Below are positions 14,388-54,831 of a DNA stretch of 64,000 nt, piece by piece. The position numbers and the translations under genes were made by a program. Under the pieces are notes generated by a model, which was not told the origin of the DNA, ran no database searches, and worked only from the letters and a program-made list of their open reading frames with translations. Within the stretch, counting starts at the first letter, position 1. Each line of letters begins with the position of its first letter. The DNA lies in IMG/VR virus record IMGVR_UViG_3300043571_000313, positions 1-64,000 of that record; one strand, written 5' to 3'. Origin of the DNA: a virus.

Positions 14388-14828
14388 ATGCCGTCGCTCA
14401 ACAAAGTCATGCTCATGGGCAATCTCACCCGAGATCCCGAGCTCCGCGTTACCCCCAAGGGCACCGCCATCTGCCAGTTCTCACTGGCCATTAACCGCGA
14501 GTTCAAACTCGAGTCGGGCGAGAAGCGCGACGAGGTTGTCTTCGTTGACGTCGAGGCATGGGGTAAGGCGGGCGAGACCGTCGCGAAGTACCTCACCAAG
14601 GGGAAGCCGCTGTTCGTCGAGGGCCGGCTGAAGCTGGAGCAGTGGGAAGACAAAAAGACCGGCGAGAAGCGCAGCCGCATGAAGGTCGTGCTTGAACAAT
14701 TTCAGTTCATTGGCGTCCGAGAGAACGCAGGCGGTGGCGAGCAGCAGTCCGGCGGCGAACAGCACGCGCCGGCTCCCGCCTCCAAGCCAGCGTCGCAGGA
14801 CAACCTCGATGAGGACATGCCATTCTGA
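14388..14828 (+). CDS. ssb: Single-stranded DNA-binding protein
   Basis: 146 residues with a complete OB fold of the bacterial SSB type: LNKVMLMGNLTRDPELR at the start, then ICQFSLAIN, VEAWGKAGETVAKYLTKGKPLFVEGRL and a Gly/Gln linker ending in the acidic tip DEDMPF, which in bacterial SSBs recruits partner proteins. It binds ssDNA as a tetramer. Its location is odd: it lies inside the virion/ejection gene set and its stop overlaps (TGATG) the start of the 3064-residue protein, far from the replication operon. Confidence 0.93.
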   Translation: MPSLNKVMLMGNLTRDPELRVTPKGTAICQFSLAINREFKLESGEKRDEVVFVDVEAWGKAGETVAKYLTKGKPLFVEGRLKLEQWEDKKTGEKRSRMKVVLEQFQFIGVRENAGGGEQQSGGEQHAPAPASKPASQDNLDEDMPF

Positions 14829-17800: not shown

Positions 17801-20800
17801 GAGCGAACCAAGACCATTGAGCCTGGCGGATCGCAACAGGTACTACTTGAGGATCTGGCGAAGGCGGGATTCGTGCCGTACTTGAGGATCGTTTTCGACG
17901 GCGAGCCGGCCGCCATCAGCCGCCACTTCGCCAACATGGCGGAACTGGATGCGGCTATCGCCAAGACCGAGAAGGTGCCCGCTGCCACGACCGCTGTGAA
18001 TGTGGCTGCTGGGCGCAGCACCCTGCGCTCTGACATCATCACAACGGGAGACGCGGCAATGACTGTCGCCGAATCCGCGCTCGCCCCCGAGGACGCGGCG
18101 AACGAGCAGTCGCCGGCTGCTGCGCTGGCAGAGGCGATGACAAAGGTGATGGACGGCATGACCACCACCATGCTCGACAGCATCGTTCGCCGCGCCGCGA
18201 AGGCGAAGGCCTCGATCGAGGCGACGATCGAGGGCATGCCTGCATTCGGCCGGGAGCTGCTGAAGAAGGTGATGGTCGAGACCGATGCCACCCCGGCGAT
18301 GGTTGTTACCTACGTTCGAAGCTCACTGCCGGCCGACACTGAGATCCCGGCTGGCCCGGGAACCTTTTCGCTCGATGCCAAGAAGGCCACGACATCGAAG
18401 ACGACCGCAGCACCCGCGCTCAAGGGGTTCGACAAGGTGCCGCTGGCGGCGCTCGAAAAGCTGTATGAGGTCATCACCCGCTCGCCCAAGAACCTCGACG
18501 GAAACTTCGACGGCAAGGAGCTTTCGTCCGGCTGGCTTGATCGACTCAATATCCTGTTCGAGCGGACGGGCATGGCGTCATTCGATGAGTTCGTCGCCAC
18601 GCTGGACAAGTTGTCCAAGGCGGCGAAGTCGCCGACCCAGTTCGCGGCTGCGCTCAAGGGCAAGCCGATGTATGAGAGTCAGGAGTTCACCGTCCCGCTC
18701 CCGCCGGTCGGCCACTTCGAGGCGCTGGTGCAGCGTCTCCGCAACAACGGCTTCGATGTCGAGGTGATCCAGCGCGAGCTGGGCATGACGCTCGCCGGCA
18801 TGTATCGCGGCGGGAAAATCTTCGTCGCGCTGGAGGACATGGCCAACGCCAACCTCGCCGGTCTTCGGCGCCTGATTCACGAGGCTGGCCACGCGGTCAT
18901 CGACCAGGAGTCCATGCAGACGCGCGAGGATCTGCAGCGTGCGGTTGAGAGCACGATGAGCGAGGCCGACAACGGCGCGATCTTCAAGGCGGCGCTGAAC
19001 GCCGGCAAGGACTGGGAGGAAATGCTGGTCGACACTACCGCGATCAAGCTGGCCGAGGAAGGCTTCGGCGAGAAGTCAGCCACCATTGCCGAGGCGATCT
19101 GGCGGACGGTGAAGGACGTTTACTACCGGGTGGGCATGGCGATGCTGCGCGCGCTGGGCGTCGATCCGTCGCCGGAAAGTGTCCTTGCGTGGTGGGACAA
19201 TAACATGCGGCGCCACCTGGGCGGCGACTTCGACTTCCGATTCACAGACCTCTTCCGCCCACACGTTGAGCGCAACGCCGAGCGCGTCTCCCGCTTCACC
19301 ATCGCCGACGGGCAAGACATTCCCGACCTCCTCGATCCTATCACCGGCCGCGTGACGCAGGCCGAGGTAGTGCCGGACACCGTCGAGGCAGCGGAGTGGA
19401 ACCTCAAGTTCATGAAGGATGGCGTGGCCGGCGCGGACATGGACTACACCGAAGCCATGGCGCGGGTCACGGCGGCGGCATGGAACGAGGCGATGCCCGT
19501 GATCCAGCGGCTCAAGGCAGAGCTCCTGCCGGCCGGGACGGATGATCAGTTCTGGGCCATCTTTTCCCCATCGAAGGACACTCCGCAGAAAATCGTTGAG
19601 GAGATGGAGAAGCGGGTGCCCGGCGCAGCGACGGCAAAGGTCGGTGGTGAGAAGATGACCGATGCGATGAACTCTCGCGCGCGTGCGAAAGCGTTCCGCA
19701 TCATCACCGGACTTGCTCGAGCAGCCCGCAAGCGCGCGGCCGGCAGCGAAGCAGCCATCACCCGCGAGTCGGACGCGATCGTTGCCAAGGCGGAACAGCT
19801 AAACCGTGCCGACCGCGAGCTCCGCGACGCGACCGCAATGGATGCTGTTTTCAACGACGCGCTGCGCGACCTCATCAAGGAACTCTCGGTCGGCATCGAC
19901 AGCGGACCCGACACTGCTTTTGCGGCCGGCAAGCTGGCGGGCGCCATCCGCGAGATCGAGCGGCTGACAGACAAGGACGCGATCCCCGCCGAGTACCAGA
20001 ACGTTTTCAAGCGGCTACTCGACAGCGGCGGCGTGTCGGTCTTCGACTACCTGAGCGCCATCGCCCGCCTGAAGCTGCCTCTCGGCAGCATGAAGGTGCC
20101 GGACATCATGAAGGCGATCAGCGAGAACGCTGCTTCCGACTCCCGCCTTGCTTCGCTCAACGATCAACGCCCCCTCGCCGTCGCGCTCTCCACCCTGGCG
20201 CGCAACTCGACGCGCGAGATGGACCTCCTTCAACTGCGCTCACTCAAGGACGCTGCCGAATACACTTCGATCCGCGCCGAGCTGGACGAGATCCAAGTAG
20301 CCAACGAAACCCGCCTCGAGGAAATCGCCAAGGGGATCGACGCCAAGGCCGAGAGTCTGAGTCTGCGGGACCGGCTGAAGCAGGCATACGTTGAGGCACG
20401 CCGGGATTTCAACCGCTCGCGCAAAACAATCCAGCGCCAGCAGGAGTTGGTCATCCAACGCAAGCGCTTTGCCGACGTCATGGAGGAGCGCGCCACGGAG
20501 CTATCCCGCGACGTGGGATCGTTCTCGTTTTGGGAGGCGCACGACGGCGCTCAATACCGGGCGATGACCCGGGGTGACGACGGCAAGTGGACGGCAACCG
20601 AGCGCACGCTGCGCATGGTGGGCGATGAGATTACTGAACAGCACGAGCAGGTTTCGCACGACATGGCGATGAACCGGCTTTGGCTGAACATGCACAAGGA
20701 TCAGGCTGGCTCCCGCCTCTATGAAGAGGTGAAGCGCCAGACATGGGAACTCACCAAGCTCGACTTCGCCAAGAACTATGAGGCGGCGACACGCTTCCGC

Positions 20801-23800
20801 ATGGACCGCTGGCTGCAGCCGCTCGGCCAGAAGTTCGCCGGCACGGGTGAGCTGGCCGGCACCAAGATCAAGCAGATGCTCATTGCGTGGCAGTCGGTGA
20901 TGTTTCAGCACTCCGACCAGGTGGATGCCGCCGCGCGCCGCTGGACGAAGGCGCTGAAAGATGCGTCGAAGGACGCAGGTTACACGAACGAGAAGCGATT
21001 CTTCGACGAGGTGGTGAACCCCGCCATCTACGCCATCGAGAGTGACCCGGGGCGCGACGAGGCCGGCGCTCTCCGCACCGCGCGCAAGGTGGCGGCCCGC
21101 ATCATTCCGCCCGCCTACACCGTCGGGCCGAACTTCAACCTGAAGCTGGAGCGGCTGCTGCGCGCGCACAAGGAGGTGAGCGAACTCATCGTTCAGATCG
21201 CCGAGAAAAATGGCGTGTATGTGAACGACAGTCGCATGCGCGATCCGCTCACGGGCAAGGCCGGCATGCTGCGGCACGCCATCAAGTACGGCTGGTTCAC
21301 TTCGACTCGCAGGCTGCGGGGCGAGGCGGTGCGCATCCTGACCAAAGACATGCACCAGGCCGGGTGGCGCGACGACACCTTCACGGATCTGCCCGAGACT
21401 GCCGAACTTGACAAGCTGGTGGGCAAGCACTTCACGCCGACGATCATCAAAGGATTCGTGGAGCCGTTCGTCCGCAAGCCTGGGCGCGAGGTGTTCTTCG
21501 GAGCAAAGGATGCCAACGATAAGCCGACCTATGTTTCGCAGCTCACGGCGCAGGAGTTGTGGGAAGGCGCTGGCGGCGACGTGATGAAGTTCATCGACGC
21601 GATGTATGATCGGACCAACCCGCTCGACAATCGCGACGCGCTGCCCGAGTACCGGCGCTCAATCCTCGCCCGCTTCAATCAGCTCTACACGATGGAGTCG
21701 AAGCTGGCCGCAAAGACGGAGTCGGGCGGCGGACTCGATCACATGACGCAGAAGAGCCATCGCGTGATGGACTCCCGCACCAATGACCTGATCCCGCCTG
21801 AGCATTTTCAGTATGACATTTTCTCTCCCATCGATGCGCGGCGGGCACTGACGGAGGTGGCGTTCCACGCTGCGTTCGGCCGCGACGGCGTCGCGCTGGA
21901 CAAGGCGATGATCGATCTCGACAAGGGGCTCAACCTGTCGGCCGACCGCTACAAGATGATCCCCGAGGGCACGCGCAAAGAGAAGGAGGCCTACGCCAAG
22001 GAGCAGGGCTGGGACTTCAAGAAGCTGGAGCGTGCGGCCGACGATCGCAAAGCAGTCTCGGCCTGGAAGGCGAAACTCGTGAAGCACTTCACCGGCAGCG
22101 AAGCCGTGGTCGGCGACGCGCGCACGATGCTCGAGCTCGCACAGCTGAACGTGGCCCTGCTGCTCAATCAGCCGAAGTCGGCGCTGTGGAATCTCCTCTC
22201 CATCCTCGAGTATCCGCTGGTCTATCGCGGCCTCAACCGCAGCTCAGTCCGCGCCACTGCGACGGCCGCGCGCGTGCTGGCGCGCGAGATCACTGGCTCG
22301 TTTCTCAAGGTGGCCGGCGTGAACCTCACCCAGAAATTCGAGTACGCGAATGAGATCGCTGAGATCGTGGAGCGCAAGGAGACGGAGCGCCTGGACTTCG
22401 GCACACTCATGGCGGACATCGGGCCGGATGGCCGATTCACTCAGGGCGGTGTAGGTAACACCGTGACGGAGGTGAGCCGTGGCATCCAGACTGCGATGCG
22501 AAAGGGGTTCAAGGGTAACAACGCGCTGTGGGCACCCTTCAACTTCATCAGCCACAAGGCCGACACCGCCATCGCGACGGCCAACGTGCAGGCGTTTGAG
22601 ATGATGGTGAAGCGCGCGATCGACTACTTCGAACGCCACCCGGAAGCGCGTGACAACCCCGCGTTCCGGCTCACGTCCGACCACCTCGGGATGTCGGAAG
22701 GCTGGTTCTCTGAGGCTGGCACCTTCGACTACTTCCGCACGCGCGCGATGGAGTACGGGCTTGGATCCCTGGAGGACATCGCCCGCGAAGCGGCCATCGG
22801 ACGTGACAGCGGCGGCAAGCTGCTCACCCGCGATCAGGCGCTCGGCGTGGCGATGATGGCGCTCAATGAAATCTCGCTGCATGCCGGCGTGAACTCCCGC
22901 CTGATCGAGATGATCGACAATCCGATCCTGCGCTTCGGCGGCCTGATGCTGGGCTGGCCCCTGTCGAAGGTGAATCAGATCAACGACGCCTTTAAGGATG
23001 CCGATGGCAAGGCGACGCTGGCCTCGGCGATGCGTGCGGTCGGGATCATGGCGGCGTGGACGCTGCCGGCTGGCCTCGCCTACTCGCTAATGGTCGACGA
23101 GTATGACGACAAGCTCCTGAACAAGAAGTCGAACCTCCGCAGCATCGACCCCATTGCGATCACGCCGGTCGTCGGCCCGCTGCTGGCGGCGGCTTCCGAT
23201 TCGGGCAACATCCTCGGCATGCTTGAGCGGCTGGCGCGCGCCGGAACCTACGGTATCGTGGGCGACATGGTGAACTCCTTCACCAACGTCGTCGATCCGT
23301 CGAGTGGGCAGCGTGACTTCGACCTCAACAGCCGCGTGCTGGTCTTCAATCAGTTCGCGAACATCCGCGACGTCTTCCGTAACCTCATCCACCAAGACGG
23401 CGAGATGACGTACCAGTCCACCGGGCGCCCGCTGATCTCGGCGATGGGTGGCGGCGGCCTACTGCAGGCGATGCAGCTGGTGAACGCCCGTCTTGGCCTG
23501 ACCAACGCCGAGGCGGCAGTCACGAATCGGATCAACGTGAACAACTACCTGCGCGCTGCCGGCCGTGCCGTCGACATCGAGCTTCGTGGTGGCACCGCCC
23601 GCAGCCTGCCAACAGCACGCTCCGTCTGGCTGAATCAGATGCAGGTGATGGCGCTCTCCAACGATCGCGTTGGATTCGCCGAGGCGTACCGCAACGCCGT
23701 CGACGTGGCCCGCCGCCAGGGCGAGCCGGACCCCGAGGCCAAGGTGCTCGAAGACTTCAAGTCCCGCCACCCGCTTTCGTCGGTGTTCCGCACCAAGCCC

Positions 23801-24022
23801 TCCGAGGTGGAGATGGGCAAACTCATGTCGACTCTTGACGACACAGGGAAGCAGGCGGTTCAGCAGGCACTCGCCTTGTTCGAATCCTTCACTGAGTTAA
23901 TCGAGCCGAACCCAATCATCCAGCGAATCAAGCAGCAGCAGGCGGCACAAATGCGAGCGGCGCAGCCACTCACCATTGAGCAGCTGCGCCGCCGTGCGGC
24001 ATCAGGTGTGATGGGTTACTGA
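14828..24022 (+). CDS. Giant virion protein (3064 aa) with embedded zincin motif; probable ejection protein
   Basis: Starts in a TGATG overlap with ssb. The N-terminal region (about 70-180) has Gly/Ala-rich hydrophobic stretches (LAGTAMGAVALGLDAVG; ATIGATAGTAAAPGPG) likely to interact with membranes. Pro-rich linkers occur near residues 395-415, 470-490 and 580-640. A zinc metallopeptidase signature HEAGH lies at 1351-1355, followed by WEEMLVDTTAIKLAEEGFG with candidate third-ligand glutamates. Long helical regions fill about 1600-2000, and a hydrophobic helix occurs near 2732-2756 (MAAWTLPAGLAYSLMV). The C-terminal 650 residues resemble giant phage polyvalent/internal virion proteins (LPD38-type). 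It would be packaged and ejected with the genome; the peptidase may open the cell wall or process partners. Confidence 0.7.
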   Translation: MSGSTNSLVQGYRAYLERSGKVDLRTDTELTVELGDLLRSKGNDAFDLKASEYPDFREQYLTATQSTDRGVIGEVAAGARRGARSLAGTAMGAVALGLDAVGANETAKSLATKAEEFASGGEDNAATVGRMKDVIDVEGGVRYAAGKIGEAVPSIAEALVTATIGATAGTAAAPGPGTAGGAAAGFIGKQAVKQMIRKGVATRILGKDVTEAALETALKDAANATLRTAFVNESRALAARMGAGAVGAINSLGLSSGEIYNETGDVATSLGAGAIAAIPDTILPTYIVGKFFRGAASADDVARAGGFMKRLATEAAKTMPIEAGTEAFQELVNIAAVKFNKGEPATLDAADLERIKEAAVGGLAGGLVGAPIAAAPAPNAAIEARRAAATGTTPPPPGTPVTPPPPPAPKTPTRGEVVAKWVAAAPDLQDARINALLRVTRTKDEDQELEVLNALVSQRPPAVAATATPPPPAPSPASTATPAPAASNWLTEQIDRDAATADRLGWTQKIGDMAAQRMTARQIRDALPYRENGIDQMDAMSIVLSARNKLKIPSQEERVEFEEWIKARQQTASAPAASMGTPPAAPAPSAVGAAGATVTPLVSAPTPPPPPPVVAPAPAPKPPTAAELTDRINSANRRFGTIISRVPTLDFAAAKTALEAISTSPTDLANAVQKFEASVETLETLAVAEAAKIAAGTAQKRQEVATSRAKNLAEKLDAQVAAAADRARKRAEKNAKILAKEAEAPAPPAPAPPGFRLATDQEMSLPLPLEGQFVQTASGVIFREGEQPVGEAVQPVRVAVYQKGERFLTQRQYEAEDVAPVAEPVVTPTVPAPADLRAEQDEAESEDDAAATEQMRAMGRFADALLAKQGKKAAEVVPPPTPADDLKTRLDAVLNPPVEVAPLSFGKIAAMDSELNTQGASDNSGTRTKSRVAYAIRDDRDTSIPEDQRPVYLKGTVDYSKAEGLLRVGPGATKGVGKAVFAMGKNRGKPAERTKTIEPGGSQQVLLEDLAKAGFVPYLRIVFDGEPAAISRHFANMAELDAAIAKTEKVPAATTAVNVAAGRSTLRSDIITTGDAAMTVAESALAPEDAANEQSPAAALAEAMTKVMDGMTTTMLDSIVRRAAKAKASIEATIEGMPAFGRELLKKVMVETDATPAMVVTYVRSSLPADTEIPAGPGTFSLDAKKATTSKTTAAPALKGFDKVPLAALEKLYEVITRSPKNLDGNFDGKELSSGWLDRLNILFERTGMASFDEFVATLDKLSKAAKSPTQFAAALKGKPMYESQEFTVPLPPVGHFEALVQRLRNNGFDVEVIQRELGMTLAGMYRGGKIFVALEDMANANLAGLRRLIHEAGHAVIDQESMQTREDLQRAVESTMSEADNGAIFKAALNAGKDWEEMLVDTTAIKLAEEGFGEKSATIAEAIWRTVKDVYYRVGMAMLRALGVDPSPESVLAWWDNNMRRHLGGDFDFRFTDLFRPHVERNAERVSRFTIADGQDIPDLLDPITGRVTQAEVVPDTVEAAEWNLKFMKDGVAGADMDYTEAMARVTAAAWNEAMPVIQRLKAELLPAGTDDQFWAIFSPSKDTPQKIVEEMEKRVPGAATAKVGGEKMTDAMNSRARAKAFRIITGLARAARKRAAGSEAAITRESDAIVAKAEQLNRADRELRDATAMDAVFNDALRDLIKELSVGIDSGPDTAFAAGKLAGAIREIERLTDKDAIPAEYQNVFKRLLDSGGVSVFDYLSAIARLKLPLGSMKVPDIMKAISENAASDSRLASLNDQRPLAVALSTLARNSTREMDLLQLRSLKDAAEYTSIRAELDEIQVANETRLEEIAKGIDAKAESLSLRDRLKQAYVEARRDFNRSRKTIQRQQELVIQRKRFADVMEERATELSRDVGSFSFWEAHDGAQYRAMTRGDDGKWTATERTLRMVGDEITEQHEQVSHDMAMNRLWLNMHKDQAGSRLYEEVKRQTWELTKLDFAKNYEAATRFRMDRWLQPLGQKFAGTGELAGTKIKQMLIAWQSVMFQHSDQVDAAARRWTKALKDASKDAGYTNEKRFFDEVVNPAIYAIESDPGRDEAGALRTARKVAARIIPPAYTVGPNFNLKLERLLRAHKEVSELIVQIAEKNGVYVNDSRMRDPLTGKAGMLRHAIKYGWFTSTRRLRGEAVRILTKDMHQAGWRDDTFTDLPETAELDKLVGKHFTPTIIKGFVEPFVRKPGREVFFGAKDANDKPTYVSQLTAQELWEGAGGDVMKFIDAMYDRTNPLDNRDALPEYRRSILARFNQLYTMESKLAAKTESGGGLDHMTQKSHRVMDSRTNDLIPPEHFQYDIFSPIDARRALTEVAFHAAFGRDGVALDKAMIDLDKGLNLSADRYKMIPEGTRKEKEAYAKEQGWDFKKLERAADDRKAVSAWKAKLVKHFTGSEAVVGDARTMLELAQLNVALLLNQPKSALWNLLSILEYPLVYRGLNRSSVRATATAARVLAREITGSFLKVAGVNLTQKFEYANEIAEIVERKETERLDFGTLMADIGPDGRFTQGGVGNTVTEVSRGIQTAMRKGFKGNNALWAPFNFISHKADTAIATANVQAFEMMVKRAIDYFERHPEARDNPAFRLTSDHLGMSEGWFSEAGTFDYFRTRAMEYGLGSLEDIAREAAIGRDSGGKLLTRDQALGVAMMALNEISLHAGVNSRLIEMIDNPILRFGGLMLGWPLSKVNQINDAFKDADGKATLASAMRAVGIMAAWTLPAGLAYSLMVDEYDDKLLNKKSNLRSIDPIAITPVVGPLLAAASDSGNILGMLERLARAGTYGIVGDMVNSFTNVVDPSSGQRDFDLNSRVLVFNQFANIRDVFRNLIHQDGEMTYQSTGRPLISAMGGGGLLQAMQLVNARLGLTNAEAAVTNRINVNNYLRAAGRAVDIELRGGTARSLPTARSVWLNQMQVMALSNDRVGFAEAYRNAVDVARRQGEPDPEAKVLEDFKSRHPLSSVFRTKPSEVEMGKLMSTLDDTGKQAVQQALALFESFTELIEPNPIIQRIKQQQAAQMRAAQPLTIEQLRRRAASGVMGY

Positions 24023-24023: not shown

Positions 24024-25130
24024 TCAGCGGTGCACGTAGCCCTCGGTTACGGCTTCCGAAGTGCGCGAGTGGCCAAGCAGCCGGCCGATCTGCTCGATGG
24101 TCTTACCCGCCTTCTCCATGCGGGTGGCGAACGAATGGCGCAGGCAGTGGAACGACTTCCCCTCGATGCCGAGGTCGGCTAGTATGCGGGCGTAGTAAAC
24201 GCTGTGCCGTGCGCGCCTCGCGGGGTCGAGGGCTATCGCGCGCTCATCAGGGAAGACGTACTTCGGGTCGAGGCATTCAGCCATCATGTCGAAGAAGATT
24301 CCGCGCAGCTCGCCGCCGCCGAGAAGCGGGTCGTCGATCGGCAGCGCCACCCGCGCCCCACTCTTCCGCGTCCAGACGACGATCTCATCGGGCATGATGC
24401 TGCCCCACTCCAGGCACGCGCAGTCCGACAGGCGCAGCCCCGCCCAATAGGACAGCGCCGTCCACCACTTCCACTTGCCGGTCGTGTGCGCCATGATGTG
24501 CTTGAACTCGCGCTCGCTGAACGGCACGCGCCGGACCGGCTCCTTCTGCTCATGCGAAAGATCGTTGAGCCGGACCCTAACCAGCTTTGATGGGTTGCCG
24601 GCGTAGTACGCCTTCGCCGTGACGAAGTCGAAGAACGATCGGATGGATGCGAGGCGCACGTCCCGGTTGCTGGCCGTCGTCGTGTCCTTCTTGGAGTTTA
24701 CGAATCCATCGAGGTGCTCGAAGGTGAGGCGGGTGACCGGCCACTTCGATGCGTCGTTGGCCTTGACCAGGTGGCGCAGCACGAGCTCTTGCGTGCGCAC
24801 CGTGTTGGGCGCGGCGTTCGTCTTGCGCCATACTACCCACTCGGCGATCGCCTGATCGAGCGACACCTTGCGGCCGGCCATGATGGCAGTGAGGGCTTCA
24901 GCAGTGAGCGCACGAGCACGCGCCGCCATCTCCATCTCCAGCACCTTCGACTGCACGACGACCTCGCGCGCCTTCTCGATGGTGGATTGCTTTGTCGATC
25001 GCGTGTGCGACTTGCCCTGCGCGTCGAGGAACTTGACGTGATAGATGCCCGACTCCTGATCGCGGGTCAGGTGGGCATCGAGTTCGGCTTTGGTTGGCAC
25101 GCCGTAACCCATGCCATGTGGTGACTTCAT
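24024..25130 (-). CDS. int: Tyrosine-family integrase
   Basis: I start at ATG 25130 (368 aa, MKSPHGMGYG); upstream in-frame starts overlap the next gene. The SAM-like core-binding domain spans about 90-190 and the catalytic domain about 200-368. The catalytic set is complete: Arg233 (AGLRLSD), Lys256 (TRKSGARVALP), His328-x-x-Arg331 (HCLRHSFATRM), His354 (LLGHSR) and nucleophile Tyr365 (EGYVHR), three residues from the end. It is convergent with the 3064-aa gene with a single base between them. It indicates a temperate phage; the attachment site is not identified. Confidence 0.92.
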   Translation of the reverse strand: MKSPHGMGYGVPTKAELDAHLTRDQESGIYHVKFLDAQGKSHTRSTKQSTIEKAREVVVQSKVLEMEMAARARALTAEALTAIMAGRKVSLDQAIAEWVVWRKTNAAPNTVRTQELVLRHLVKANDASKWPVTRLTFEHLDGFVNSKKDTTTASNRDVRLASIRSFFDFVTAKAYYAGNPSKLVRVRLNDLSHEQKEPVRRVPFSEREFKHIMAHTTGKWKWWTALSYWAGLRLSDCACLEWGSIMPDEIVVWTRKSGARVALPIDDPLLGGGELRGIFFDMMAECLDPKYVFPDERAIALDPARRARHSVYYARILADLGIEGKSFHCLRHSFATRMEKAGKTIEQIGRLLGHSRTSEAVTEGYVHR

Positions 25131-25146
25131 TTTGAAGATTAAAATG
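25128..25146. promoter_or_regulatory. CATTTT-N7-AAAATG dyad at the integrase start
   Basis: A 19-base inverted repeat with 6-bp arms CATTTT/AAAATG and the 7-base centre GAAGATT. The left arm contains the integrase ATG on the minus strand. The same arms and centre length occur at 35660-35678; related sites are at 54917 and 58032. Possible operator or attachment-related site. Confidence 0.4.
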
Positions 25147-25185
25147 TGGGTGCTTGCCCGGCCGAACGAGTCGCCGGAGCGGACG

Positions 25186-25536
25186 CTACGCGCCGCTCGG
25201 CTTGGTGTTCGGCCGATAGTGTTCCGTCCCGGTGGTTGCAAATCCGTATCGTTTCCCGGTCGGGTCCGGGAGCAGTTGGCAGTTGGCGATGACATCACAC
25301 ACCAGCGTCCGCTCCGGGTCGCGCATGTGCTTCTGCATCTGCGATAGCATGTCCACGCGCCTTCGATTCCAGTCTGCGGAGTGCGTGAGCTTGCGGCAGT
25401 GCTCCACCAGTTCGTCCTGCATGAGCTTTCCGGTCGGGTCGCCCACGGCAGCGCGAATGTCCGCCAAAAGGCCCAACAAGGCGGTCGAGCCAACAGCCGC
25501 CTCGCGTTTCCGTTTCGTTGCGTTCCGGTTCTTCAT
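25186..25536 (-). CDS. Hypothetical protein (116 aa)
   Basis: A basic N-terminus (MKNRNATKRKREA) leads into a helical segment 'LLADIRAAVGDPTGKLMQDELVEHCRKL' of a kind frequently seen in small phage accessory proteins (Ea22-like), then an Arg/Met-rich helix and a C-terminus rich in Tyr/Pro. It starts in an ATGA overlap with the LigA-like gene upstream, so it belongs to the same leftward operon. Function unknown. Confidence 0.6.
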   Translation of the reverse strand: MKNRNATKRKREAAVGSTALLGLLADIRAAVGDPTGKLMQDELVEHCRKLTHSADWNRRRVDMLSQMQKHMRDPERTLVCDVIANCQLLPDPTGKRYGFATTGTEHYRPNTKPSGA

Positions 25537-42149: not shown

Positions 42150-42749
42150 TCACGCCTTCGAGGCAATCGCCGCATAGGCAGCACGCACCTGCGCGGCATG
42201 CGACGTCGCCTTCGGCTTTTCGCCGTGCGTCTTCTGGAACGTCAGCTTGGTCGTGGTCTTGGCCGCGCCCACACGAACCGTGTAGGCCACCAAGTCACCG
42301 CCGTTGTCCATCGCCTCATCGCAATACATGGCCTTGTTCGCCATCAGATCCGCCTTGCGCGCATCTGCGGTCTTTTTGACCGAAGCGCGCTGGCTGTCCG
42401 TCAGGCGGACATACTTGCCCGGCTGGTAACCCTCGGGAATCGCCGCGCCATGCGCGGTCGCCTTCAGGATCACAACCATGTGCGCCAACGTCGCCACCGG
42501 CAGCAGTGAGACGAACGCCTTGCGGGCTTCCGTCGCGTGGAACTGGGTCAACTGAACCCGCGAGTCCGCGAGATCCAGCTCACTGAGCTCCGAACCGGCG
42601 TCCGCCTCAGCGGCAGCATCTTTCGCCAACTCTTCGGCCAACACCGTGTCATCCTCCAGAATGTCGAGCAGCTTCGCGCTGGCCTCGTCATTCGAGATCA
42701 AACCCTTGTCCAACTGCGCCACGATGTCATTCTTGATCGAGTTATTCAT
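42150..42749 (-). CDS. Hypothetical protein (199 aa), first gene of the leftward early operon
   Basis: Start at ATG 42749 (MNNSIKNDIVAQLDKGLISNDEASAKLLDILEDD); longer frames run into the control region. The N-terminal third is acidic-helical, the rest mixed alpha/beta ending in a basic helix (KLTFQKTHGEKPKATSHAAQVRAAYAAIASKA). No known family. Being first after the control region it is expected to be expressed early. Confidence 0.65.
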   Translation of the reverse strand: MNNSIKNDIVAQLDKGLISNDEASAKLLDILEDDTVLAEELAKDAAAEADAGSELSELDLADSRVQLTQFHATEARKAFVSLLPVATLAHMVVILKATAHGAAIPEGYQPGKYVRLTDSQRASVKKTADARKADLMANKAMYCDEAMDNGGDLVAYTVRVGAAKTTTKLTFQKTHGEKPKATSHAAQVRAAYAAIASKA

Positions 42750-42824
42750 GAGAAACTCGGTTCCGTCCTGCGGGGTCCGATTGGTCGCTGGCCTGAAGAG
42801 GCTTCGCGGGATCGGGTGCCCCAC

Positions 42825-42840
42825 TATCGGGATACCGATA
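42825..42840. promoter_or_regulatory. Palindrome TATCGG-GATA-CCGATA
   Basis: Perfect 6-bp arms around 4 bases, 75 bases upstream of the first leftward gene. Possible operator for that unit. Confidence 0.3.
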
Positions 42841-43252
42841 CGCCATTTTTCACGCGCCCCGCTGTAAACCATTTCGCTTGCGACATTTGAACGGCCGTCC
42901 GCCACTTCGCCCCACTACTTTAAGTGCATTCGTGCGCTGCGGCCGAGTTCGATCCGCGTCATGCGACCCACGTAAAAAAATCCGCCGTCGAGCTAAGATT
43001 CCATCAGGTGTGATCCACGCGCCGTCGGTTGCGGTATCGTGGGATTGTAAGTCCCCTTATTGCAACCCATATGCGCTAGCTTGTTCCGGTAGCCCCCCGG
43101 CAGTCTCTCGCGGCTGACTGCTGCCTCGTGCCGGGCGAGTCGCGAACCGGTCGAGCGTTGCTCTAGACCGTCGGACTGCTAACCCTGACACCAGCAGCAA
43201 CTTGCTGACTATCAGTGACCTAACCTAGGCAGAGGTAACAGCAAAATCCGAT

Positions 43253-43270
43253 ATACCCCCCCGGGGGTAT
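43253..43270. repeat. Palindrome ATACCCCC-CC-GGGGGTAT
   Basis: 8-bp arms around two bases. Possible protein site; too short a loop for a stable RNA hairpin end-to-end and no T-run follows. Confidence 0.35.
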
Positions 43271-43301
43271 TCGGGGTTTCGACCTGGCCGCCTTCCCCGT
43301 A

Positions 43302-43307
43302 TATAAT
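43302..43307 (+). promoter_or_regulatory. TATAAT (-10-like) hexamer
   Basis: Exact -10 consensus downstream of a C-rich stretch; no good -35 at 16-18 bases. Low confidence as a promoter. Confidence 0.2.
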
Positions 43308-43347
43308 CCCCTCCCTCTGAACTTTCGGGCCTGGCTCGCGTGGGTGG

Positions 43348-43389
43348 ATTCAGGCCTATTTTTCTAGGTCCATTCAGGCCTATTTCTCT
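43348..43389 (+). repeat. Two direct repeats ATTCAGGCCTATTT, 24 bases apart
   Basis: Copies at 43348 and 43372 are identical over 14 bases and nearly so for four more. They flank the left edge of the GTCTCATGG array. Confidence 0.7.
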
Positions 43390-43444
43390 TTTTTACAATT
43401 TGTCTCATGGGATAATTTTCCCATGAGACCACTTCCCATGAGAC
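43389..43444. promoter_or_regulatory. Operator/iteron block A: TTTTTTACA element and 28-bp dyad
   Basis: TTTTTTACA (43389-43397), four bases, then GTCTCATGGGA-N6-TCCCATGAGAC (43402-43429, 11-bp arms), followed by another TCCCATGAGAC half-site (43434-43444). Same element as blocks B-E. Confidence 0.75.
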
Positions 43445-43451
43445 TGCTCGG

Positions 43452-43523
43452 TTTTTTACACGTTGTCTCATGGTCTCATGGGATGGGGTATTGTATAATA
43501 CCCCTCCCATGAGACCATGAGAC
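43452..43523. promoter_or_regulatory. Operator/iteron block B: 59-base composite dyad
   Basis: TTTTTTACA (43452-43460), four bases, then a dyad 43465-43523 whose 27-28-bp arms each contain two GTCTCATGG units plus GGGGTATT, around the centre GTAT. The left arm has one extra T. TATAAT (43494-43499) sits at its centre, so a bound protein would block transcription from here. Confidence 0.75.
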
Positions 43524-43671
43524 TGTGGAAAACCGGGTGAGACCGGGTTCAGGACGGCCGTTTCGCGCCAGCTTCCGTGCCTTTAGGATTAAAAAGACCC
43601 CCCTCTTCTGCGCGCAGACCGGCTGTTTCGATCCGACAGGCCTTAAATCGCAAAGGACGGCGTTTAAATCG

Positions 43672-43721
43672 GTCTCATGGGAAACGCATTTTTTATCCCA
43701 TGAGACCATTTCCCATGAGAC
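43672..43721. promoter_or_regulatory. Operator/iteron block C
   Basis: GTCTCATGGGA (43672-43682), 13 bases, TCCCATGAGAC (43696-43706), then a further TCCCATGAGAC (43711-43721). Order and spacing repeat block A except for the longer centre. Confidence 0.7.
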
Positions 43722-43737
43722 CACTTTTTACATTTCG

Positions 43738-43786
43738 TTTTTTACACTTTGTCTCATGGCATTCCCGTGAGACAAATTGTAAAAAA
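43738..43786. promoter_or_regulatory. Operator/iteron block D: 49-base dyad of two complete elements
   Basis: TTTTTTACA-CTTT-GTCTCATGG (43738-43759) faces its inverted partner CCGTGAGAC-AAAT-TGTAAAAAA (43765-43786). The 22-bp units differ at only a few positions, so this is the clearest view of the whole element. Confidence 0.75.
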
Positions 43787-43851
43787 ACACCCTCTTTCGT
43801 TGCCCACGGTTTGAGGTTGCCATCTCGAGGCCGGTTTGCCGGCATCGGGGC

Positions 43852-43983
43852 GTGAGCTTGGCGCTTCTACTCCTCGTTTTGCAGAGCCGGCTGGCGTGGG
43901 CGCAGGTTCCTGAGCGCGCTTCGGCGCCTAGGGCGGTGCTTATCGCGCTGCGGGACATGCAGTTTCGGGGATTCCGCCGATGA
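43852..43983 (+). CDS. Candidate small exported protein (43 aa)
   Basis: GTG 43852; MSLALLLLVLQSRLAWAQ looks like a signal peptide, then a short basic peptide. Its stop overlaps the next start by ATGA, which supports it, but no family is known. Confidence 0.35.
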   Translation: MSLALLLLVLQSRLAWAQVPERASAPRAVLIALRDMQFRGFRR

Positions 43984-44090
43984 ACCGGCGTGGCTTTATC
44001 CGAAACCTGCTGGCGGGTGGCGCGGTGGCGGCCGTTGCGCCGAAAGAGGCGATCGACGAGGCGGTCGGTCCGGATGATTGCCCGTTCTGA
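43980..44090 (+). CDS. Candidate small protein with Tat-like leader (36 aa)
   Basis: MNRRGFIRNLLAGGAVAAVAPKEA has a twin-arginine RRGFIR followed by a hydrophobic stretch, as in Tat signals, but there is almost no mature protein after it. Overlaps the preceding gene by ATGA. Possibly a membrane peptide. Confidence 0.4.
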   Translation: MNRRGFIRNLLAGGAVAAVAPKEAIDEAVGPDDCPF

Positions 44091-44103
44091 ACGTATTTTA
44101 CAC

Positions 44104-44451
44104 ATGAGCAGCGACACGCCACTGACGGATGCGGAGTACGTCACGACCTACGACGGCGGGGACCACCCGCATTGGGCAACAGCGGTGCGACATGGGCCGT
44201 ATGCTGGCTATTGCTACACTCAGGAGGCGGCAGACCACCTGACCAAAATGCTCAACGAACGTATCACTCTCGAACGCCGCGTCAGCCAGCTAGAGGCCCA
44301 ACTTGCCGAGGCGCGCAAGGATTCGGAGCGGTTGGCTAAAGCTGACCGGCTCGCGCTCTACGACGGGAAGGATGGGCACCGCGAGTGGTGGAGCGGAGGG
44401 ACGTGGCTCTATCCAGGTGATGAGATCATACAACTAGACGCGAAACCATGA
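44104..44451 (+). CDS. Hypothetical protein with coiled coil (115 aa)
   Basis: ATG 44104. N-terminal 'DAEYVTTYDGGDHPHWATAVRHGPYAGYCYTQEAADHL', a central coiled coil (RITLERRVSQLEAQLAEARKDSERL) and an aromatic end. Unrecognised; ATGA overlap with the next gene. Confidence 0.6.
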   Translation: MSSDTPLTDAEYVTTYDGGDHPHWATAVRHGPYAGYCYTQEAADHLTKMLNERITLERRVSQLEAQLAEARKDSERLAKADRLALYDGKDGHREWWSGGTWLYPGDEIIQLDAKP

Positions 44452-44729
44452 GCCCACAACGCAAAGCCAAGAAGCCCGCGAGGATTAACGGGGAAATCAA
44501 GCAGTCCATGATGCCGATACGGGACAATCGTGGCATGACGATTCGTTTTGAGGATCGCCCCAAGTATCTACAACTCCCCATCGACAACCCTGACGCGCTG
44601 GTTGAGCAGGTGGCCAACGACATGGCGGCCTATGGCCGTAGTGGACAGTATCTGTTGACATGGGAGGATATTGCCCGCGCCGCCCTGCGCTCCCTCGGTG
44701 TGCCGATTAAGGGAGGGAAAAAACCATGA
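44448..44729 (+). CDS. Hypothetical small basic protein (93 aa)
   Basis: Basic ends (MSPQRKAKKPARINGEIKQ; KGGKKP) and a helical middle (LVEQVANDMAAYGRSGQYLLTWEDIARAALRSL). Could be a DNA-binding accessory protein. ATGA overlaps with both neighbours. Confidence 0.55.
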   Translation: MSPQRKAKKPARINGEIKQSMMPIRDNRGMTIRFEDRPKYLQLPIDNPDALVEQVANDMAAYGRSGQYLLTWEDIARAALRSLGVPIKGGKKP

Positions 44730-45241
44730 GCACGCAACCAAGCGAGCACGCGCAGCGGGCATCGAAAGCATTAGACGGTGGCGACATCGAGGCGCACATC
44801 ATCGACCATCACGCGATCGCTCCCGCCGTGGCCGAGCGGGACCGGCGAATTGCCGAGTTAGAGGCGCGTATCGCCAAGCAAAACGCGATCATTGACCGGC
44901 TGAACCACTGCGGATCCGACACCGAGCGGATCGAGTGGCTGGAGCGTATGTGCTTTGACCTCACCGAATCAAAAGGGCGATGGTGCGTCTCGGACTTTAT
45001 CGTCGAGAGGGCGCACTACGGCAAGACCGTGCGAGAGGCGGTCGACGCGGTGGGCCGGGTCACGGATTGCCCGGGTCAAATAATCACGGCGCACTGGATG
45101 CAGACCGCGCGCTCCACTGCGATGTACAGCGAGGCCTACCTCGCCGCCTTGAACGAAATCATGGCCGGAAAAGCCAATTTTTACACTTTGTCTCATGGGA
45201 AAATATCCCGTGAGACTGCCGGGCTCCGGGGAGCCCCATGA
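44726..45241 (+). CDS. Hypothetical coiled-coil protein (171 aa), Ea22-like
   Basis: The first half is a coiled coil (AVAERDRRIAELEARIAKQNAIIDRL); then 'DTERIEWLERMCFDLTESKGRWCVSDFIVERAHYGKTVREAVDAVGRV' follows a pattern of Ea22-like phage accessory proteins. The end of the gene contains copy E of the GTCTCATGG operator (45190-45216), so its last 20 residues are read through the site. Confidence 0.55.
   Translation: MSTQPSEHAQRASKALDGGDIEAHIIDHHAIAPAVAERDRRIAELEARIAKQNAIIDRLNHCGSDTERIEWLERMCFDLTESKGRWCVSDFIVERAHYGKTVREAVDAVGRVTDCPGQIITAHWMQTARSTAMYSEAYLAALNEIMAGKANFYTLSHGKISRETAGLRGAP
45178..45216. promoter_or_regulatory. Operator/iteron block E inside a coding region
   Basis: TTTTTACA-CTTT-GTCTCATGGGA then 5 bases and TCCCGTGAGAC. 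Same element as blocks A-D about 1.4 kb away; it may allow DNA looping between the two sites. Confidence 0.7.
45221..45236 (+). promoter_or_regulatory. Hairpin GGGCTC-CGGG-GAGCCC before a start codon
   Basis: A 6-bp GC stem ends two bases before ATG 45238, where it could mask the ribosome site of the next gene. It immediately follows operator block E. Confidence 0.35.
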
Positions 45242-45612
45242 GATCGACCCCACGTCATTTACGTGAGTGGCTGGCGGTCCTGCACTATAACGGGGACCAG
45301 GTGACGTGGCGCACATGGTGGAAGATGCTGCGCGGGGCAGTGTCCATGGTCGCCCGGCCGCTGCCCCGGGCCGTCTGGCGTAACCGGGCGCGGACGTGCG
45401 CGCGGTGCCCCCTCTTCGACCGCGAGTTGCGGCGCTGCGCCGGGCCGTGGGTGCAGGGCAAGCCTACCGGGTGCGGGTGCTACCTCGTTTGGATGATCCG
45501 CGTGCCGGCGCCTTACCCTGCGGGGTGCTGGGCGAAGCAGTTCTTGGCGCCTGAGACGGGGCTGGGCTGGCCGGCTTACCCATCGGCAACGCCGAGGAGT
45601 CCAGGATCTTGA
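45238..45612 (+). CDS. Cys-rich protein (124 aa), putative zinc binding
   Basis: Starts in an ATGA overlap with the preceding gene. The middle has CARCPLFDRELRRCAGPWVQGKPTGCGCY: five or six cysteines in a short span suggest a structural zinc site. The N-terminus is helical and basic. The last 50 residues overlap the convergent gene on the opposite strand. Unrecognised. Confidence 0.5.
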   Translation: MRSTPRHLREWLAVLHYNGDQVTWRTWWKMLRGAVSMVARPLPRAVWRNRARTCARCPLFDRELRRCAGPWVQGKPTGCGCYLVWMIRVPAPYPAGCWAKQFLAPETGLGWPAYPSATPRSPGS

Positions 45613-47549: not shown

Positions 47550-47727
47550 GGATGGGTGAATTATTGAGTGTGTCGGTGAGTGCCATCGGCACCCAGGCGA
47601 AGTAGTCCCATCCGGCCGGCGCCGCCATGCGCAGCTTCGAGAGCTCGAGCTCGATGTGGGACCACTCGACCGACGCTATATAGATGCCGTACTCAAATGG
47701 TGTCACTGCGTGGATTCTGAATTTCAT
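47338..47727 (-). CDS. Hypothetical protein (129 aa), probably disrupted or overlapping
   Basis: The first 60 residues (MKFRIHAVTPFEYGIYIASVEWSHIELELSKLRM) look like a folded protein, while the rest (RVRRRKGRSPRECRHQKECDRPADVL) looks like a shadow of the overlapping basic protein. Either the two genes truly overlap or a frameshift (natural or sequence error) has lengthened this one. ATGA overlap with the helicase gene. Confidence 0.4.
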   Translation of the reverse strand: MKFRIHAVTPFEYGIYIASVEWSHIELELSKLRMAAPAGWDYFAWVPMALTDTLNNSPIHEQTTKGQTRVRRRKGRSPRECRHQKECDRPADVLRSGAQPPKPEAPAETIRATADRPDLAGEGTATTTD

Positions 47728-49367
47728 GCCGTCTCCCTTAGTTTGGTTTTGGCAAGCTCGTCACCGAGCGCCGTGCGCCGCCACCGCTTGTCCTCAAGTT
47801 GTTCGACGATCCCGTCATCAATCATGCGCTTCTGCCAGCGGGCCATGGTCGGCTTGCTGACGCCGCAGCCCTCGGCGGCCGCGCGCCAGATCATTGCACA
47901 AGGTTCACCCTCGGTCGCCTGCTCCGGGTAATAGACGATCAGCACGTCCGCAGTGTAGGCCTCGCCGTAACTGCCGGTGTTCTTCTTCGCCTTGTTTCCC
48001 TCCCGCACCGGCTCTTCGGCATCCGGCTTGCGGCCCTCCCAGAAGATGACCGGGAAATTGCTCTTCCGGCCTTCGATGCGAATGACCTCATTCGAGTGCT
48101 GGGCTGGAATCTTCGTGGTGATTTCCCAGCGCACGACGCCATCACCATTGCCCGGGACCTCGATCGCGACGCCGGCCCGCTTGCCGCGCTTCGCCAGCAC
48201 GATATTGAACCGGCCCTCGTCCTCGCTCGGCTTGATTGTGACAACCGCGCGCGCCCAGTTCACCAGCTCGGCGCTCCCAGCCGCGTCGTACATGAACTCG
48301 CTCCACTTCTTGTCGGGGACGTTCTTCCCAGTGACCGGCTTTGGCGTGTGATGCACGACCATGAAAGCGAACTTCTCCTCGCGGTTCACGACGTTCAGCC
48401 CCTTGCGCAGGAACCGCCCAATCTCGGCCGCGTCCGCGATGTCGCAGCCGGCGTAGGAGTGAAGTGGGTTCAGCCACACGAGATCCGGCGCTACCTGCTG
48501 CCCGACCATGCGAAGCCACGCGATGAACTCCTCGCCTGACTTCTCCCGCTGGCGCAGGAATACGACGTTCTTATTGACCTGCTCAATATCGGCTGCGGTC
48601 AGCTTCATCTTGTAGTAGATCGAGTACAGCACCTCCGCAATGTCGCCGTCGGAATCCTCAGCCTGAATGATCAGCGACTTGATCGGCTTGCGGGTATGGA
48701 TGCCGAGGAACGACCGGCCGAGCGCGGCGCATACGGCCCACTGGACACTGAATGAACTCTTGCCCATACCCGACGATGATACGACCAACGCGCTGTCGCC
48801 CCGCCCGATGTAGCGACCGCGTCCGAGCAGCATGGATTCATCGTCGTCTGGCAGCAGCTCGAATTCACCTGCCCCCTTGGGCTTCGTATTGTTCACGCCG
48901 CCGTTCTGCAGCTGCTCCACCCGACTGCGGATCGAGCCAAGGAACTCGTCCATCTGACCGCTGTAGTCGTAGCAGTCCTCCACCGCGCGCGTGAGCGTCT
49001 TGATGGTGTCGCGCAACTTCGCCATCTCGCCGACCTTGTCGATGAAGTAGCGGGCTTGGGCGGTGGTCGGGATGCGGTCGCTGACCTGGGTGAGGTACGC
49101 ATAGCCTCCGACCTGATCCAGCTTCTTCGCCGCCTTCAGCTCTTCTGCCACTACCGACACATCGACCGGCGCTTGCCGGTGGAACAGGTCGAGGATGCAC
49201 CCGAAGATCTCGCCGTTCTTCGGCTCATAGAACGAGTGCGGCGTGATGCGCTGGTCGATACACCGCGAAATTGTCTCAGCGCCGTCGAGCAGGCATGTGG
49301 AGAGAAGGTGCTCCTCGGCCTCGATGCTGTGCGGCAATGACCGCCCGATGTTGGAGGTCGTGGCCAT
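47724..49367 (-). CDS. Replicative helicase: DnaB N-terminal domain joined to RepA/AAA_25-like ATPase
   Basis: 547 residues. Residues 9-110 match the DnaB N-terminal domain (PHSIEAEEHLLSTCLLDG; FYEPKNGEIFGCILDLF). The motor is of the RepA/AAA_25 kind rather than canonical DnaB: Walker A SSSGMGKSS (Lys203), then a RecA-like core with IQAEDSDGDIAEVLYS and LVWLNPLHSYAGCDI, HH (VVHHTPKPV) and SAELVNWARAVV. The C-terminus (about 470-547) is a winged-helix (AAEGCGVSKPTMARWQKRMIDDGIVEQL). It would unwind DNA at the replication fork as a hexamer and might load itself through the winged helix. Confidence 0.8.
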   Translation of the reverse strand: MATTSNIGRSLPHSIEAEEHLLSTCLLDGAETISRCIDQRITPHSFYEPKNGEIFGCILDLFHRQAPVDVSVVAEELKAAKKLDQVGGYAYLTQVSDRIPTTAQARYFIDKVGEMAKLRDTIKTLTRAVEDCYDYSGQMDEFLGSIRSRVEQLQNGGVNNTKPKGAGEFELLPDDDESMLLGRGRYIGRGDSALVVSSSGMGKSSFSVQWAVCAALGRSFLGIHTRKPIKSLIIQAEDSDGDIAEVLYSIYYKMKLTAADIEQVNKNVVFLRQREKSGEEFIAWLRMVGQQVAPDLVWLNPLHSYAGCDIADAAEIGRFLRKGLNVVNREEKFAFMVVHHTPKPVTGKNVPDKKWSEFMYDAAGSAELVNWARAVVTIKPSEDEGRFNIVLAKRGKRAGVAIEVPGNGDGVVRWEITTKIPAQHSNEVIRIEGRKSNFPVIFWEGRKPDAEEPVREGNKAKKNTGSYGEAYTADVLIVYYPEQATEGEPCAMIWRAAAEGCGVSKPTMARWQKRMIDDGIVEQLEDKRWRRTALGDELAKTKLRETA

Positions 49368-53499: not shown

Positions 53500-54546
53500 T
53501 TAGGAAGCCTGCGTGAACGACACGAGGATTTTGACTTTCGCACCGCTGGGTAGCGCGCGCTCCTCAATCACGGCGTCGATGATCGCGCCGTTCGCCGGCA
53601 CTTGCTCCATTGCTCCGTCAAACAGGGCGTCGCCCATCAGTTCGCCGGTGAGTGTGACGGTGCACACGGGTCCGACCACCCCACCCGCCTTGCGCGCCTG
53701 CTTCTCGGTGACATTGGTGATCTCGCAGCGCAGGGTCTTTGCGGCCGGGATCGCAGTCTCGGTCGGTGGGACTTCGGCGGCTGGAGCCGGCGCCGCAGGA
53801 GCGGGATCGGCGGGCTTCGCCGGCTCCACGGTCTTCGCCGGTTCAGTGGCATCGACGGTCTTCTCGGCTTCCCTGCGCGCGCCGGACACGCCCTTGCTGC
53901 GGCGCTGGACGACCGGCTGCTGTTCCGGCTCGACGGCCGGCGGCGTGGGCGCGCCTTCGGGCGCGGCCTGAATCTCGATCACTTCGTCCGAGGTCTGGAA
54001 GCCCATCAGCAACTCGGGCGCGTACATGCGCGTCCACCACGTCGCCGCACGATACTGGAGCATGAGCTCGGGCATCGTCTTCCACTTCGATCCCTTCTTG
54101 TCGATCCAGCCTTCGAGGCGGGCGATCTCCATGGTGACGGTCGTGCCCTTGCAAAGGAAGCCGTCCACCCGGGCCGTCGCCTGCGCGAAGAAGCCCCATG
54201 TCTCCTTCCCCTTCTCGCCGACCTCGACGAACCGCAGCGGCGTGAACCGGCCGCACGCATTGATCGAGGCGATGTTAAACGTCGAGCGAAACGCGGGGCG
54301 ACCGTAGATGATGTCAAGATTCTGCATCACCATGAGCGGCGAGGCGCCCATGCGGTTCGACATTTCCAGCGCGATGATGACGTTCGCGTCGTGGTTCTTG
54401 AACACGTCCGGCACCAGATTCGAGCTCGCGAACATTTTCGCGACACGCTGAATATGGGCGAACTTCGTGGCATCCTCGTAACCGAGGGAAAGCTGGCTCG
54501 ACTGGGAGCCTGCGGAGGGGACGATCTGGGTAGTTGTATCACTCAT
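53500..54546 (-). CDS. recT: RecT-family single-strand annealing protein
   Basis: 348 residues. The core (FAHIQRVAKMFASSNLVPDVFKNH, IIALEMSNRMGASPLMVMQNLDIIYGRPAFRSTFNIA, LMLQYRAATWWTRMYAPELLMGFQTSDE) follows the RecT annealase pattern. The middle third (200-260) is an Ala/Pro/Glu linker, longer than usual, and the C-terminal 80 residues (VVGPVCTVTLTGELMGDALFDGAMEQVPANG) look like a beta-rich extra domain. It anneals single strands during recombination, working with the PD-(D/E)XK nuclease. Confidence 0.8.
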   Translation of the reverse strand: MSDTTTQIVPSAGSQSSQLSLGYEDATKFAHIQRVAKMFASSNLVPDVFKNHDANVIIALEMSNRMGASPLMVMQNLDIIYGRPAFRSTFNIASINACGRFTPLRFVEVGEKGKETWGFFAQATARVDGFLCKGTTVTMEIARLEGWIDKKGSKWKTMPELMLQYRAATWWTRMYAPELLMGFQTSDEVIEIQAAPEGAPTPPAVEPEQQPVVQRRSKGVSGARREAEKTVDATEPAKTVEPAKPADPAPAAPAPAAEVPPTETAIPAAKTLRCEITNVTEKQARKAGGVVGPVCTVTLTGELMGDALFDGAMEQVPANGAIIDAVIEERALPSGAKVKILVSFTQAS

Positions 54547-54555: not shown

Positions 54556-54831
54556 TCAGGTGCCGGCGACGATGTGACACTCGGTCACGGCGCCCGGCGG
54601 GTTGTTGGCGGGATCCATAAAGGTATCCAGCTTTCGAATACTGTAGTAGGAATCGCCGCGAATGATGCGCGGCTGGAGAAGTTCACGGCCCGGCATCGCT
54701 GCATCGTCACGCCACGAGCGGAACGCCGAGCGCGAGATGCCGAGATAGGACGCAGCGGCTTCGACTCCGTAGAGGTAGCCGCGAAGCGCTTGCTTTCGAA
54801 TACGCCTGGGAGTTTTAATATCAGCGCTCAT
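54556..54831 (-). CDS. Excisionase/MerR-like helix-turn-helix protein (91 aa)
   Basis: Start at ATG 54831. 'YGVEAAASYLGISRSAFRSWRDDAAMPGRELLQPRIIRGDSYYSIRKLDTFM' follows the HTH_17/excisionase pattern (helix, wing, then an RxDSYYS beta hairpin). It may direct excision with the integrase or regulate the operon it heads. The basic N-terminus is MSADIKTPRRIRKQ. Confidence 0.6.
   Translation of the reverse strand: MSADIKTPRRIRKQALRGYLYGVEAAASYLGISRSAFRSWRDDAAMPGRELLQPRIIRGDSYYSIRKLDTFMDPANNPPGAVTECHIVAGT

Follow-up and report, generated by a model that had tools for sequence, protein, structure and literature searches.

An array of inverted words between divergent phage operons that may work like an iteron-like origin

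The largest non-coding gap in the early/replication half of a phage genome is occupied, in its middle part, by an array of a short word laid out in inverted pairs and palindromes, and the array is confined to a single place in the genome. Arrays of different words were found in four related phages, in one of which (G005) both the syntenic place and a promoter-like block ahead of the array are kept. A tentative reading of this arrangement, held with a confidence that stays under even, is that it would be an iteron-like array bound by an initiator, i.e. a replication origin or an origin-linked early control region. Since comparable arrays with different words occur in relatives, the data suggest a fast-changing docking site for a protein with a probable role in initiating DNA copying or in the control of early genes; the origin and gene-control roles are mutually compatible.

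The window, i.e. the whole stretch of DNA analysed, consists of bases 1-64,000 of a 73,809-bp virus record. As the ends of the record repeat 127 bp exactly, it is very likely complete, with a circular map of ca. 73,682 bp. The phage (G000; codes of the form G0xx designate its relatives) encodes a terminase, a tail protein, RecT, an exonuclease, a RadD-like helicase, a DnaB-like helicase, MazG and a Xer-like tyrosine recombinase.

The word and its inverted pairs

GTCTCAYGG is present in 14 copies in the window, six on the plus and eight on the minus strand, which agrees with the half-site count of the first-pass annotation; all lie in 43402-45216, 12 of them in 43402-43773, while shuffled versions of the window averaged 1.69 copies and never exceeded 6. 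The other 9.8 kb of the contig contain no copy. In nine copies the word extends to GTCTCATGGGA. The five T6ACA-N4-GTCTCAYGG elements described at first, four of them close together (43389-43786) and one in a coding region, were all recovered: the composite TTTTTTACA-N4-GTCTCAYGG is exact at 43389, 43452 and 43738 on the plus strand and at 43765-43786 on the minus strand, and the fifth copy, at 45177 inside ORF 44726-45241, has one mismatch (T5 instead of T6). Five such copies compare with 0.02 expected from shuffles, up to three mismatches being allowed. Concerning the four-base spacing, it is indeed fixed in these five copies, and at this distance the remaining nine words lack a T-run. Since the T-run accompanies only five of the 14 words, it is the 9-11-mer GTCTCAYGG(GA) that repeats and not, as had been proposed, the 22-mer.

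The words form five inverted pairs, an arrangement absent from the earlier annotation, with gaps between the 9-mers of 10, 25, 17, 5 and 9 bp for P1 to P5, respectively. Extra single words stand 15 bp beyond P1 and P3, and the steps between words are 8 and 15 bp. Given these variable spacers and steps, the words look independently bound, like iterons, and not like fixed dimer sites. The elements of the array are:

43389-43429, plus strand: P1, T6ACA-N4-GTCTCATGGGA-N6-TCCCATGAGAC, an 11-6-11 layout
43436-43444, minus strand: single word, 15 bp from the minus word of P1
43452-43523, plus strand: P2, T6ACA-N4 followed by doubled words (8-bp step) on both palindrome arms
43672-43721, no strand: P3, inverted pair 43672/43698 with 17 bp between the 9-mers and a second minus word at 43713; left side without T-run
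43738-43786, no strand: P4, 49-nt palindrome with T6ACA at both outer ends, 22-bp arms 91% complementary and a 5-nt centre
45177-45216, plus strand: P5, outlying T5ACA-N4 dyad in the 3' end of ORF 44726-45241, the next start codon lying 22 bp on

The P2 palindrome itself (43465-43523, 59 nt) is near-perfect, with the centre GGGGTATT-GTAT-AATACCCC, and the DNA fold z-scores are -11.5 for P2 and -7.4 for P4. The blocks 43402-43523 and 43672-43786 resemble two versions of one arrangement.

The control region and its neighbouring genes

The gap whose middle is filled by the array separates a leftward operon, directed towards the recombinase gene, from a rightward operon of small genes, the last of which encodes a Cys-rich protein. 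Its G+C content falls to 38-41% at the array, vs. about 62% overall, and this dip consists of the words, T-runs and palindrome centres themselves. The features considered are:

42750-43979, no strand: non-coding control region, 1.23 kb between divergent operons, from gene calls and composition
43253-43270, no strand: C7/G5 palindrome ATACCCCCCCGGGGGTAT, upstream of the promoter-like block
43295-43326, plus strand: promoter-like block CCCCGTATATAATCCCCTCCCTCTGAACTTT, with TCGACC-17-TATAAT at 43279-43307; aligns with a block of G005
43524-43532, minus strand: TTTTCCACA, perfect match to the DnaA-box consensus TTWTNCACA, abutting the right arm of P2
42150-42749, minus strand: opening gene of the leftward operon, for a 199-aa protein without family match
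43980-45241, plus strand: four small genes in the rightward operon, coding for 36, 115, 93 and 171 aa, none with a significant family match
45238-45612, plus strand: small, Zn-knuckle-like protein rich in Cys, CxxCP..C..GCGCY..CW, present in 16 clade members and frequently encoded in the operon beside the gap
47724-49367, minus strand: DnaB-like replicative helicase, syntenic with G005
54556-54831, minus strand: small HTH protein, first gene of the recT operon, with weak HTH_17, excisionase and Cro-like matches and an ortholog in G005

TCGACC-17-TATAAT points right, into the array, and is the sole promoter-like site returned by a consensus scan, for which about one is expected by chance. The first word lies at least 94 bp downstream of the promoter-like block, no word overlaps this block, and every other promoter of the genome is devoid of words. 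As for the DnaA-box match, 0.02 were expected in the gap, the consensus being that of E. coli, which may not be the host's; T6ACA is one position off the same consensus. A 23-nt direct repeat (GGTGGATTCAGGCCTATTTTTCT / GGTCCATTCAGGCCTATTTCTCT) occupies 43343-43389, directly before the first word, and a terminator-like hairpin is found within this stretch, at 43365-43382.

The strand read from the promoter-like block is also the one on which T-runs precede hairpins in four of the five elements, as would suit an RNA leader whose hairpins serve as terminator or attenuator, or as nut/put-like antitermination elements. P3 and the next word can likewise form a 14-bp RNA stem with a U-rich tract after it, and the hairpin at 43365-43382 would fit as well. 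Such a leader is nonetheless improbable: the identity of the word across 14 copies exceeds the needs of a stem, its sole changes are T-to-C (one-sided G-U pairs), none of them compensated, copies in inverted orientation, e.g. the T-run on the minus strand of P4, would be senseless as strand-specific RNA signals, five of the six words of G005 are direct copies and one is inverted, and an Rfam search gave no match.

No family match singles out any binding protein in the phage. Six-frame searches of the whole record for Rep_3, RepA_N, HTH_3, S24 and ParB_N returned nothing at E<=10, which bears out the earlier remark that no repressor or initiator of known family adjoins the element; the reader protein, if found, would likely be of an unnamed family. 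The 199-aa product of 42150-42749 is a candidate reader by position only. Its fold model is poor (pLDDT 42) and a protein search with it found no relatives. The first genes of the leftward operons show no convincing homology across the clade, so that positional co-evolution is not evidence here. The Cys-rich protein, whose start codon (45238) overlaps the stop of ORF 44726-45241 as ATGA, had no PHROG or NCBIfam match, none in Pfam at a loose cut-off, and a middling model (pLDDT 65). The HTH protein is the only HTH-like protein recognised, and its own promoter region carries no word.

Arrays in related phages

A BLAST search with the 441-bp array region found nothing in phages or plasmids. A pattern scan of viral contigs yielded eight matches, of which only the contig L010 was real, the others being single chance matches in other sequence; apart from L010, the exact array was absent from all phages, plasmids and genomes searched. 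L010 is a 16-kb contig, 99.9% identical over the 11.9 kb compared, in which every word is kept: none of the 11 differences falls in a word, and with only four in the gap this is not informative. Five of the 11 are grouped within 133 bp (window 54277-54409), at the N-terminal end of the RecT gene. A protein search with DnaB only found the near-identical contig alone, and RecT relatives had no such array. Searches with the terminase led to a large clade whose terminases and portals have no close counterpart in the phage database used.

Bacterial genome contigs scanned with the T-run word gave no match either, and a dyad scan of genomes returned 14 unrelated hairpins of another build, mostly rumen Lachnospiraceae repeats. 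That the array derives from a host or mobile palindromic repeat (REP- or MITE-like) which landed in the phage is very improbable. Similarly spelled 9-11-bp dyads do constitute repeat families in rumen Lachnospiraceae, and part of the G013 array is missing from the aligned G016 region; against this, the T-run version occurs in no genome contig, the genome dyads are built otherwise and the phage genome has the array at a single place. A REP-like origin was rejected, no dispersed copies having been found. In rumen Eubacterium and Lachnospiraceae (L096-L109), a repeat family TTTTGTCTCATGGGAAATTC...GAATTTCCCATGAGACAAAA shares the 11-bp word of the phage, apparently by coincidence.

When clustered 8-mers were sought blindly, in both orientations and with 20 shuffles per sequence, the array of the window was recovered (11 copies vs. 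a shuffle maximum of 5) and others came to light: six TTGGCAGT in G005 (maximum 5), ten CCCCATAA in G003 (maximum 3), five AGGTGTCC in G013 (maximum 4) and seven TCCCAAAA in G025 (maximum 3). For G005 and G013 the excess is small genome-wide; inside their own gaps the shuffle maximum is 3 for both. The private words of these arrays are TTTTGGCAGT (G005), ACTTATGGGG (G003), GTTTTGGGAC (G025) and AGGTGTCC (G013). The spelling of the element first described is not conserved in relatives, L010 excepted; shared are the kind of array and, in the case of G005, its place. The refuting condition set by the first-pass annotation, lack of conservation in close relatives, therefore applies to the spelling and not to the array. 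These arrays of similar build speak for the sequence-specific reader proposed by the first-pass annotation; that a single protein does the reading, we infer only. Eight of the 17 relatives and fragments (G008, G009, G010, G015, G016, G018, G019 and G020) had no significant array, which is therefore not universal.

G005 is syntenic in mirror image, with the array followed by the Cys-rich gene, MazG, DnaB, the RadD-like helicase, the exonuclease and RecT. Upstream of the array, G000 and G005 share an aligned block, CCCCGTA..TATA.AT.CCCTCCCTCTGAACTTT, which occurs once in each and stands ca. 92-107 bp ahead of the first word (alignment score of 35 vs. a best of 30 in 1000 dinucleotide shuffles), and in both phages the array stands between divergent operons. 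The G013 array sits between a TATA-like block and the first gene. The G003 array is intergenic, between convergent genes, and ends ca. 50 bp from the stop codon of a helicase gene with a PrimPol-like match; that of G025 begins 9 bp after the DnaB stop codon. These helicase-side positions suit an origin and are a poor fit for an ordinary promoter operator.

The position between divergent operons in G000 and G005, 92-107 bp past the shared block, and the placement in G013 would also suit an array of operators, at which an unrecognised repressor or regulator silences the rightward operon and maybe also the leftward one; the private word of each phage would then be its immunity specificity. P5, 22 bp ahead of a start codon, is in line with this explanation, as are the divergent words at fixed places known from the repressor sites of cluster A mycobacteriophages (PMC6550527, PMC9283540), and a block of elongation would be possible, since the first word is reached only 94 bp past the promoter-like block. 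However, the other promoters of the genome lack the word, no HTH_3 or S24 repressor appeared in the six-frame search, the spacing of inverted words is not fixed, no word overlaps the promoter-like block and no gene reads away from the G003 array. We regard operators as possible, with some doubt.

In G012, G022, L144 and L151, arrays were found near recombinase and terminase genes; they may be a different thing. Short-word arrays beside such genes in G022, L144 and L151, together with P1, whose 11-6-11 layout resembles Xer core sites in a clade that has a Xer-like recombinase, would be compatible with a partition (centromere), packaging (pac) or recombination (attP) site. We consider this unlikely, as no ParB_N domain was detected in six frames, the recombinase and terminase genes are 18 kb and 12.5 kb away from the array, respectively, and the other pairs do not have the 11-6-11 spacing. 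A Xer core site at P1 was rejected on the differing central regions and spacers of the five pairs.

Opposing words flank a palindrome with a GTA or TAC centre in four phages: GGGGTATT-GTAT-AATACCCC in G000, GGCCTAT-GTAT-ATAGGCC in G003, ATAAAAATAC-GTA-GTATTTTTAT in G005 and GGGGGGTAT-TAC-ATACCCCCC in G025, the likeness of the centres being a post hoc observation. A TGGGA core that the words of G000, G003 and G025 seem to share was likewise noticed. GC-skew extremes showed no consistent coincidence with the array in relatives, and DnaA boxes were not enriched in the relatives' arrays.

C-run/G-run palindromes are also present in the gaps of G008, G013, G016 and G020, their alignment with that of G000 not being significant. 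In the first three of these gaps, TGTAACACTA...TAGTGTTACA-type dyads surround the C-run/G-run palindrome and are accompanied by a TATATATACC block, one dyad abutting a start codon:

L205 9400-9560, L214 405-705 and L233 10427-10635: dyad gaps of G008, G013 and G016

These dyads are likely operators of another regulator. A perfect, non-coding 13-6-13 palindrome, TAGTAGTCACCTA-CATATA-TAGGTGACTACTA, with a Xer-core-like layout, was seen in G010 (L230 8609-8640).

The iteron-like reading and known systems

Several observations favour an origin: the array is far beyond chance, occupies a single place and lies in the largest gap, with an A+T-rich dip; a perfect DnaA-box match stands beside P2; and the word-flanked, GTA/TAC-centred palindromes of four phages were counted on the same side, their likeness being post hoc. 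Against an origin stand the lack of a Rep_3 or RepA_N initiator in the contig, the 8- and 15-bp steps, which are not whole helical turns, the GC-skew extremes of relatives, which do not coincide with the array, the DnaA boxes not enriched in relatives, and the eight of 17 relatives and fragments without a significant array. The promoter-like block and P5 fit gene control as well as or better than an origin.

If the array is an initiator-binding one, a phage-encoded DNA-binding protein of no recognised family would occupy the private 9-11-bp words one by one, build a nucleoprotein complex, help to melt or extrude the AT-centred, hairpin-forming palindrome and bring in the DnaB-like helicase of the phage. 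Transcripts begun at the promoter-like block (43295) would run through the array; transcription through the origin is a known arrangement in lambda.

Plasmid iterons measure 17-22 bp, are bound by Rep monomers and lie beside DnaA boxes and an AT-rich element, and the cooperativity of plasmid Rep is lost at half-turn separation (PMC4980987). The phage array resembles the iteron origins of the R6K, RK2, P1 and F plasmids and lambda ori by its multiple short words in non-coding DNA near replication genes, and may do so by its A+T-rich DNA, although this dip is that of the words, T-runs and palindrome centres, and by the adjoining perfect DnaA-box match; its 22-bp composite has the same length as the iterons of R6K and pPS10 (PMC4980987). 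It differs from them in that no Rep_3 or RepA_N initiator was detected, the words are about equal in both orientations and mostly in inverted pairs with variable spacers, and the core unit is 9-11 bp with 8- and 15-bp steps that are not helically phased. By this analogy, the array may work like an iteron array. RepA_N iterons have inverted repeats that converge on a poly-A tract (PMC7145576), as do P1 and P5 in likeness, and the origins of PLE, a Vibrio cholerae phage satellite, share with the array non-coding repeats, inverted repeats onto an A/T tract and a location by replication functions (PMC7145576), whereas the contig has no RepA_N domain.

By the features compared, the array does not fit lambdoid operators, cluster A stoperators, ParABS centromeres, Xer/attP sites or REP/MITE elements. 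Cluster A mycobacteriophages have asymmetric, repressor-specific operator and stoperator words that differ among related phages, as here, but their 13-mers occupy more than 20 dispersed sites in a preferred orientation, while the phage words are all within 1.8 kb and in both orientations (PMC9283540, PMC6550527). Lambdoid OL/OR are alike in their repeated inverted sites, divergent early control region and two similar blocks (here 43402-43523 and 43672-43786), and unlike in that the pair spacers of the phage vary from 5 to 25 bp, its sites lie off the promoter-like block and no CI/Cro-type (HTH_3) or S24 protein was detected. Unlike ParABS centromeres, the array has no ParB_N protein encoded in cis, according to the six-frame search.

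A broader claim, to which we give rather little weight, is that this clade of uncultured phages possesses an undescribed class of DNA-reading protein, either an initiator or an immunity regulator. Its word would differ completely in each phage, as a private replication or immunity password, with only the type of array (and its place, among close relatives) being retained. Arrays of reader-specific words are the means by which replicons and prophages distinguish self from non-self, and so quickly changing a word would offer a natural series for studying the joint change of a DNA-binding protein and its site; the control region concerned measures about 0.5 kb.

Three observations were made elsewhere in the window. 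A 3064-aa protein (14828-24022) is kept in much of the clade and has no PHROG or PDB sequence match; a giant virion RNA polymerase with hairpin promoters, an idea prompted by this protein, found no backing in these searches. The Xer-like tyrosine recombinase gene (24024-25112 or 24024-25493) is present in at least ten members of the clade, adjoining a SNF2-type helicase gene, and for this reason its product is perhaps no ordinary phage integrase. Finally, a 93-bp direct repeat at 4734-4889, with overlapping copies that are 86% identical and offset by 63 bp, lies inside ORF 4671-5468, in the virion gene half.
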